Positions 53,328 through 53,819 of a stretch of 54,577 nt of DNA are shown one piece after another. The DNA is from Clostridia bacterium. GTDB lineage: Bacteria > Bacillota > Clostridia > Christensenellales > Borkfalkiaceae. A program made the translations under genes and the position numbers. The notes under the pieces were generated by a model. It did no database searches. It saw only the letters and a list, made by a program, of their open reading frames with translations, and had not been told where the DNA came from. Position 1 is the first letter of the stretch. Every line of letters begins with the position of its first letter. The stretch covers positions 1 through 54,577 of the forward strand of contig JAFTSN010000009.1 of the NCBI GenBank assembly GCA_017467275.1. The letters run 5' to 3'.

Positions 53328-53356
53328 TTGACAGCTACAAAAAAATATTGTAATAT
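53328..53356 (+). promoter_or_regulatory. Promoter of tRNA-Ala and the downstream tandem units
   Basis: TTGACA (53328-53333), 17-bp spacer, TAATAT (53351-53356), about 12 bases ahead of the tRNA 5' end. Confidence 0.82.
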
Positions 53357-53374: not shown

Positions 53375-53450
53375 GGGGTTATAGCGCAGTTGGTAGCGCG
53401 TTTGAATGGCATTCAAAAGGTCAGGGGTTCGACTCCCCTTAGCTCCACCA
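53375..53450 (+). tRNA. tRNA-Ala (anticodon GGC)
   Basis: 76 nt with encoded CCA. Acceptor stem GGGGTTA/TAGCTCC contains the G3-U70 pair that marks alanine tRNAs, the anticodon stem TTTGA/TCAAA encloses loop ATGGCAT with GGC at 34-36, and the T-arm has GGTTCGACTCC. No terminator follows directly; transcription appears to continue through the two 162-bp units to a terminator at 53779-53819. Confidence 0.96.
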
Positions 53451-53612
53451 CGTCGAAGCACCGCCTTACGTCAGCAGTTTGCTATTGCAAACAGCACGAC
53501 AGACAGCGGGCTTCTCCTTTTTCCCAAAAATCTTTTGTTTCACAAAATATTTTCGGGAGCCCTAATAATATTTGGTGTCCTCGGTGCGTATTTCACACGC
53601 CCAAGTCCACCA
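53451..53612 (+). repeat. Structured 162-bp unit, copy 1
   Basis: Begins right after the CCA of tRNA-Ala and itself ends in CAAGTCCACCA, echoing the tRNA end. Hairpin A: GTTTGC-TATT-GCAAAC (53477-53492). Hairpin B: 16-nt arms 53523-53538 and 53542-53557 around TTC (14 of 16 pairs). The final 50 bp include a GTGCG...CAC segment. Same length as copy 2, which follows head-to-tail. Confidence 0.85.
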
Positions 53613-53774
53613 CGTCAGGGCAAGGCTATTTCGTCCACCGTTGCTACTGCAACGGCTTGACCTATGAGCCTGCCCTTCCTTTTTCCCAAAAATCTTTTGC
53701 TGTGCAAAATATTTTCGGGAGCCCTAATAATGCTTGGTGTTCTCGGTGCGTATTGCACACGTCCAAGTTCACCA
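53613..53774 (+). repeat. Structured 162-bp unit, copy 2
   Basis: Tandem partner of 53451-53612, again ending in CAAGTTCACCA. Hairpin A is CCGTTGC-TACT-GCAACGG (53638-53655); hairpin B has arms 53685-53700 and 53704-53719 around TGT. Where the stems differ from copy 1, both partners changed: G-C to C-G and T-A to G-C in hairpin A, T-A to C-G in hairpin B. The last ~90 bp are the best conserved part. Confidence 0.85.
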
Positions 53775-53778
53775 TACA

Positions 53779-53819
53779 GCGGGAGATAGGAAAAACAAAC
53801 CTGTCTCTCGCTTTTTTTT
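53779..53819 (+). terminator. Terminator of the tRNA-Ala / tandem-unit transcript
   Basis: GCGGGAGATAGG (53779-53790) with CCTGTCTCTCGC (53800-53811), 9-nt loop, then T8. It is the first terminator after tRNA-Ala, so the transcript should be about 450 nt. The remaining ~90 bp to the mgsA promoter hold nothing I recognise. Confidence 0.88.

Follow-up and report, generated by a model that had tools for sequence, protein, structure and literature searches.

Directly behind the encoded CCA of a tRNA-Ala gene, a contig of a Clostridia bacterium carries two head-to-tail units of 162 nt that fold into several hairpins, and the question raised by this locus is what kind of object such a sequence represents. 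The original prediction, made from the letters of the DNA, had offered two answers: a structured RNA linked to the tRNA and processed by tRNA 3'-end enzymes, or a small mobile repeat with tRNA 3' ends as its target. Here we examine the locus, and the window in which it lies (the whole stretch of 54,577 nt that was analyzed), against related sequences from across the Clostridia. The second answer is well supported by the occurrence of units at the CCA ends of both tRNA and tmRNA genes; the first fits poorly with dispersed copies, with the absence of a unit from 16 of 18 tRNA-Ala loci and with a folding bias toward the opposite strand. Our preferred reading, which we hold with a probability of roughly three in four, is that the window units are copies of a non-autonomous mobile palindromic element.

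The two units were confirmed immediately after the tRNA-Ala CCA (Table 1), with no gap following the last tRNA nucleotide at 53450. Both follow the same order, starting with a CGTC tag that stays unpaired and continuing with arm A, which is a long imperfect hairpin, then a TCCT linker, a second hairpin (arm B) and a third hairpin (arm C) that includes the unit's end. CACCA closes both units, as had been claimed in likening their ends to that of a tRNA. It had also been stated that a terminator lies behind the units and none between them and the tRNA. A scan of the window agrees, returning no terminator-like sites between the tRNA and the units or inside the units, and the fold of the locus places a terminator after unit 2, with its stem at about 53778-53812 and a T run extending to 53819. 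This terminator is absent from the scan list because its 9-nt loop exceeds the scan maximum of 8. In the genome to which the window belongs, one locus alone carries units by model search and blastn, and the four model matches found there are the two units plus their palindromic B arms on the other strand.

Table 1. Features of the tRNA-Ala locus in the window. Fold z-scores are relative to dinucleotide shuffles.
Feature	Positions	Strand	Basis and remarks
Promoter-like site, TTGACA-17-TAATAT	53328..53356	+	Upstream of tRNA-Ala; consensus scan alone
tRNA-Ala (GGC), CCA encoded, insertion site	53375..53450	+	ARAGORN, Rfam RF00005
Unit 1, 162 nt	53451..53612	+	Fold and alignment; model match 53451-53566, 132 bits
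Unit 1 CGTC tag, unpaired	53451..53454	+	Positions 95-99% conserved in 103 cluster representatives
Arm A, unit 1: imperfect hairpin, bulged A at 53460, GTC/GAC inner helix	53455..53514	+	z -4.9; covariation
Arm B, unit 1: hairpin TTCCC..GGGAG, conserved	53521..53559	+	Fold z -3.8
Arm C, unit 1: TGGTG..CACCA hairpin, 3' strand is the CACCA end	53573..53612	+	z -3.7
Unit 2, 162 nt, architecture of unit 1, different arm A	53613..53774	+	Model match 53613-53728, 117.8 bits
Arm A, unit 2, same architecture as in unit 1	53617..53676	+	Fold z -5.9
Arm B, unit 2	53683..53721	+	Fold; model match
Arm C, unit 2	53735..53774	+	Fold z -1.9, weak
Intrinsic terminator after unit 2: 13 pairs, 9-nt loop, T run	53778..53819	+	Fold

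The two units are identical at 115 of 162 positions, with 27 of 64 matching in the tag and arm A and 88 of 98 in the remainder. Arm A nonetheless has the same fold in both, namely five outer pairs, a bulged A, four pairs, an internal loop, the GTC/GAC helix and an apical stem, and this retention of structure at low identity constitutes a real covariation signal. The main covariation of the locus lies in a hairpin that had gone unmentioned in the original prediction, which described paired changes in what are here arms B and C. One such change stands, a two-sided replacement of T-A by C-G at the innermost pair of arm B. The differences between units in arm C are one-sided or fall outside pairs, and the full set of claimed paired changes could consequently not be reproduced.

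An absence of other copies with paired changes would have counted against the original prediction, and the opposite is clearly observed: such copies are present in many genomes of related Clostridia. A first covariance model of the tag, arm A and arm B (R1) matched 112 of 201 genomes from the family, representing 15 of 18 genera (E<=0.01). A second model (R2), built on 52 matches, has matches at E<=1e-4 in 78 of 297 genomes of the order and in 55 of 391 genomes of the class, 44 of the latter outside the window's own order. By blastn, 14 of 101 genomes gave hits, a count that includes the window's own genome and some weak and probably chance hits; six such hits (L002-L005, L017, L018) were set aside as probable chance. 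The common core, which full model matches span in 105-130 nt, comprises the tag, arm A, the TCCT linker and arm B, and it is the addition of arm C with its CACCA end that brings the window version to 162 nt. Wherever the title of a record with the arm-B pattern states a source, that source is the herbivore gut, and the 19 named stretches with this pattern are metagenome assemblies of uncultured Clostridia or Clostridiales.

Alignments made with a model are biased toward the structure of that model, and shuffles and slides served as the control. Among 112 distinct sequences, two-sided changes occur at 35 of 36 model pairs (15 of 16 in arm B across the family), and the family-wide covariation score of 0.583 compares with 0.157 for shuffled and 0.053-0.085 for slid alignments; 94.0% of paired cells hold a pair, against 68.5% after shuffling. 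The unpaired segments are conserved as well. The four tag positions score 0.95 (C), 0.99 (G), 0.97 (T) and 0.97 (C) in 103 cluster representatives, shares that are somewhat favored by the inclusion of the tag in the search model, and the unpaired TCCT linker scores 0.98-1.0 in 55 representatives. Arm A, at about 60 nt with its bulge and internal loop, opens with a first stem pair that is GC in 81 and AU in 26 of 110, followed by a second that is CG in 51, AU in 28 and GC in 23 of 110. A structure-conserved family is thus present in many genomes of the class. Searches of Rfam 15 at the gathering score matched no family to the units, and at E<=10 solely matches far below gathering scores, none of them above chance level, were returned. 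Phage and plasmid collections, together with two pattern scans of IMG/VR, held nothing matching the window units. A longer query around a class-level copy matched three unannotated phage records over 14-15% of its length, at query positions 887-1051 and thus outside the unit (about 501-609). Searches of the literature on tRNA-adjacent repeats, structured RNAs and palindromes brought up no account recognized as describing the family, and this hairpin-forming element family, widespread in Clostridia, is apparently undescribed.

From 94 loci, 115 matches were collected and one duplicate was dropped, leaving 114 distinct copies, 17 of which have a sense tRNA 0-4 nt upstream by ARAGORN; because most of these loci are the best hit of a genome, this share is not a population estimate. 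Units stand directly behind the CCA of tRNA-Ala, Leu, Lys, Arg and Met genes and 1-4 nt past the ends of tRNA-Ser, Pro, Leu and Val genes. Further order-level matches include many copies away from tRNAs, 5 of 60 having a sense tRNA 0-5 nt upstream, and a class-level copy lies directly behind tRNA-Pro. Two copies (L108, L403) are oriented opposite to the tRNA that they abut. In the window's own genus, the tRNA-Ala region was matched in 20 of 57 genomes; 16 of 18 tRNA-Ala loci have no unit and pass at once from the CCA to other sequence, usually a terminator, and the remaining two (G000, G036) carry units.

The tmRNA genes of the family present the same arrangement. Specifically, a unit begins 0-3 nt past the CCA in 15 of 130 tmRNA 3' regions, distributed over nine genera (L232, L240, L254, L269, L273, L275, L278, L296, L301, L307, L309, L316, L327, L338, L346). 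The census consisted of 30 loci already collected and 100 of 107 further selected places, several regions having short ends; it left out six places near contig ends, G117 and at least four full-length regions (G131, G143, G190, G210). In two genomes dropped from it (G164, G188), a unit adjoins the tmRNA in both. Copies thus sit exactly between the CCA of a tRNA or tmRNA and whatever sequence comes next. When non-tRNA loci were scored with a simple open-frame rule, the copy was downstream of a gene on its own strand in 28 of 31 cases in the window's family; for loci outside the family, a same-strand left neighbor was found in 7 of 16. Two individual sites may be recorded here. At position 17206 of L190, a copy starts 2 nt past a stop codon, ahead of the next same-strand gene, the preceding gene being one that we take to be mnmE. 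In L016, a unit at 1497-1609 has on its two sides a terminator region and its near-duplicate, the region being presumably the end of rpsI.

Comparison of filled and empty sites speaks to movement. In G182 (genus g2), the tmRNA CCA is separated from the downstream sequence by a unit of 163 bp, and the 80 nt behind it are 100% identical to the post-CCA sequence of the unit-less G057 and 97.5% identical to that of the unit-less G193. On the other flank, that of the tmRNA, G182 and G057 share just 75.4% identity over the last 61 nt, an inequality which means that the sequence behind the unit may itself have been exchanged; the sequence behind the tmRNA of G133 has a similar start. With this caveat, the comparison supports a precise insertion. 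CACCA occurs at both edges of the G182 unit (TCCACCA on the left, TTCACCA on the right) and could either be carried by the element or represent a 5-nt duplication. Furthermore, closely similar units occur in different genera. Same-type units of g1 (G000, G035, G042) and g43 (G118, G154, G258) are 92.6-96.9% identical, and those of g1 (G000 unit 2, G044, G047) and g55 (G113) are 95.1-96.9% identical, as compared with 59.4-63.0% identity between the tmRNAs of g1 (G035, G044, G047, G055) and those of G118, G154 and G113. Copy number reaches 22 unit-strand matches, one of them partial, in G146 and 12 in G103. Direct tandems are found in the window, in L007 and in L188, the last holding five units, of which the first is truncated, and a fragment, with a period of about 161. 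In G146 (L052-L067, L185), units alternate with other repeated hairpin modules, of the forms GCAACTAACGTCTTAAA..CGTTATAG and GACCAACAAGGTC..GAGCCTTGTCTG, to make up intergenic mosaics.

The substitution pattern of arm A indicates which strand may matter. Were a sense RNA under selection, G.U would be expected to replace Watson-Crick pairs more often than A.C, and the reverse is observed: arm-A mismatches are A.C in 31 and G.T in 13 cases among 55 representatives, and 62 against 17 over all 112 distinct rows, where one model pair, possibly a structural variant, gives 18 of the 62 A.C cells. Stability is greater for the bottom strand in 49 of 55 representatives with RNA parameters and in 42 of 55 with DNA parameters, its excess over dinucleotide shuffles having p=4e-8 and p=0.009, respectively. 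Strong folding is nevertheless seen for either strand of arm A (mean z, RNA parameters: -4.7 and -5.7), so that the strand preference amounts to a bias, and the difference between strands is small with DNA parameters. This calculated bias would suit an antisense RNA, or DNA folded as a single strand, better than a co-transcript of the tRNA.

Other explanations must be weighed against these observations. A structured RNA that shares the transcript of the tRNA, is released by tRNA 3'-end enzymes and has a small-RNA function would suit the selection on pairing, the sense orientation of units directly behind tRNAs and tmRNAs (ahead of the terminator in the window) and the same-strand left neighbor of most non-tRNA loci in the family (28/31). 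We nevertheless consider it unlikely, given the unit-less tRNA-Ala loci of the genus (16/18), the many dispersed copies, the better folding of the complementary strand and the loss of the same-strand preference outside the family, where just 7 of 16 left neighbors conform. Downstream placement on the same strand within the family (28/31) would equally be expected of a spreading transcription-end module, in which arm B would act as a terminator-like or mRNA-end stabilizing hairpin downstream of genes, and some variants (L044, L097, L111) do carry a T run after arm B. Such a module is less likely still, as a separate terminator follows the window units, the scan finds none within them, and the conserved architecture of arm A and the exact tRNA junctions are left unexplained.

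Two further proposals concern the manner of movement. A guide-directed element, in which a right part complementary to the left target picks the site in the style of bridge RNAs or IS200/IS605, is suggested by the TGGTG of the window's arm C, which is complementary to the CACCA target, and by flank statistics: the left and right flanks of a copy pair with each other better than permuted combinations do (in 103 representatives, 0 of 5000 permutations reached so low a value), and a control with a distant left 12-mer gave 490 of 2000. Against this, exact 6-nt complements at the junction occur in just 5-8 of the 103 representatives (1.2-1.4 expected), TGGYG lies within 60 nt in 6 of 36 representatives with a CCA-like end of the left flank, no more than in the others (11 of 67), and the IS110 transposase domain is present in 3 of 19 carriers. 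Exact complements are in the minority and show no preference for CCA-like sites, and base pairing can accordingly be entertained only as a possible means of target choice; guide direction as a whole we judge to be very unlikely. The least probable proposal is that the units are attC-like sites of an integron-type system whose folded bottom strands are recombined into arrays. The attC core motif is GTT/AAC, and no such core ends were seen by eye in the units; moreover, the element-rich G146 and G114 have one tyrosine recombinase domain match each, in proteins that are alike. In favor of the proposal are the sequence-variable and structure-conserved imperfect hairpin with a bulged base, the bottom-strand folding bias and the direct tandem arrays, in keeping with attC behavior as described in the excerpts of PMC3053210.

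If the units are instead regarded as a mobile palindromic element, their closest published kind is the CGTC-tagged REPs. In the sections of Di Nocera et al. (2013; PMC3733652) drawn on here, these are repeats of 20-40 bp with stems of 8-9 bp and a loop of 4-5; the palindrome has on one side an unpaired tag (CGTC, often TGTC or CCTC) and on the other a short unpaired tail of consensus CCA. The first two stem pairs are almost invariably A-T, head-to-head dimers predominate, and the repeats, which lie mostly downstream of genes and apparently lack a dedicated transposase, form four families in five phyla, the Firmicutes not being among those named there; members include dRS3 of Neisseria and RPE-4 and RPE-6 of Rickettsia conorii (PMC3733652). 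So far as those sections allow comparison, our units resemble them in being dispersed palindromes with an unpaired CGTC at one end and a habit of lying downstream of genes. The units differ in size, with an arm of about 60 nt followed by a second and sometimes a third arm, in a first pair that is mostly G-C, in their direct tandems (window, L007, L188) and in their presence in Clostridia at exact tRNA and tmRNA 3' ends. The unpaired TCCT after arm A is of a similar kind to the REP tail, though its sequence is not CCA. We therefore file the units as a new variant among tagged palindromic mobile repeats, outside the four CGTC-REP families, and CGTC-tagged palindromes now extend to Clostridia, whereas the 2013 list, as presented in those sections, includes no Firmicutes (PMC3733652).

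Resemblances to other systems are more partial. GTAG REPs and REPINs, which the portions of the literature used here link to RAYT (TnpA-REP) transposases (PMC8266576, PMC6006769) acting on single-stranded REP DNA (PMC3733652), share with the units a tetranucleotide tag and an imperfect hairpin; the tag is a different one, and the Y1 domain was not found in 8 of 19 carriers. In the excerpts of PMC3053210 that we used, attC sites are imperfect hairpins with extrahelical bases, bound by the integrase on the bottom strand; the units are likewise imperfect hairpins with a bulged base that form arrays, but no core was seen by eye, no integron integrase was identified in the data examined, and the targets are other ones. 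The bacterial MITEs RUP, NEMIS and ERIC, as described in the same sections of PMC3733652, are matched by the units in being small, non-coding, multi-copy and hairpin-forming in transcripts, whereas terminal inverted repeats of the MITE type are not shown for the units. Several traits of the units, namely a precise junction at CCA, a right end in CACCA, the tag and a bulged arm, are reminiscent of elements that HUH transposases move as single strands, or of attC sites.

Candidate mobilizing enzymes were sought by domain searches in 19 carriers, drawn from the matches listed, and 16 genomes without a listed match, the assemblies being 79-99% complete. The Y1 transposase domain (PF01797) was found in 11 of the carriers and 6 of the others; the eight carriers in which it was not found include the element-rich G146, G103, G176, G147, G186 and G371, as well as G000 and G036. 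IS110 transposase (PF02371; 3/19 carriers, 1/16 others) and reverse transcriptase (PF00078; 2/19 and 3/16) are not supported as mobilizers, being absent from most of these carriers, and tyrosine recombinases, present in 34 of the 35 genomes, do not discriminate. The element-rich G146 and G103 returned no Y1, IS110 or reverse transcriptase domain in these searches, and in view of such carriers we name no enzyme. The single tyrosine recombinases (PF00589) of G146 and G114, which resemble those of several other genomes, are presumably XerS-like. Among neighboring genes, taken as open frames of at least 150 aa in 59 loci and compared with each other, the main recurring kind occurs beside L117, L118, L120 and L121, and we take its members to be large serine recombinases. 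We assume the same of genes beside the copies in L181, L182, L183 and L184, and frames in L037 and L047 are presumably tyrosine integrases. In our reading, the serine recombinase loci are mobile elements of the host with a copy of the unit inside them. L182 and L183 are related sequences from two families, and the copy occupies the same position in both.

Other small elements were also observed around these gene ends. One lies behind tmRNA or tRNA genes or just upstream of a unit, and units can follow it (L011 1663-1867; L019 1663-1915; L022; L028 1335-1500; L029 1617-1783). It seems to hold the T-arm and acceptor end of the tmRNA twice, once inverted and once direct, in which case its edges mimic the host gene. 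Different units of about 60 nt stand behind the tmRNA in L332 (G184), L343 (G200) and L352 (G133); they close with a copy of the tmRNA 3' end (..GGTCCACCA or AAGTCCACCA) and are tandem in G184. Just past the tmRNA terminator, L303, L292, L320, L293, L287, L280 and L263 contain what appears to be the 3' end or T-arm of the tmRNA in inverted form.

How a non-autonomous mobile palindromic element might behave at such sites can be sketched. Insertion behind the mature 3' end would leave the host gene unharmed on account of that position, and since each unit ends in a target-like CACCA, tandems could arise through insertion at the ends of existing units. A trans-acting enzyme would recognize and move the element as a folded single strand, more probably the complement of the tRNA transcript. 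A more ambitious version, which we regard as possible though doubtful, is that the family represents a new class of single-stranded mobile palindromes that move as the bottom strand and target CCA, with an enzyme new to palindromic repeats. Recognition in this version would depend on shape (the CGTC tag, bulged arm A, TCCT linker and arm B) and not on sequence, and pairing of arm C with the CACCA target would help in the choice of site and the building of arrays. If true, it would explain the spread of CGTC-tagged repeats, a question already posed in the literature.

The family constitutes a large and structurally defined set of palindromes with precise sites at tRNA and tmRNA 3' ends and evidence of recent spread between genera, features that make the mobilizing enzyme and the active strand directly testable. 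Strong covariation behind a tRNA, moreover, need not indicate an RNA gene, and the 3' flanks of tRNA and tmRNA genes emerge as a refuge for small mobile DNA.
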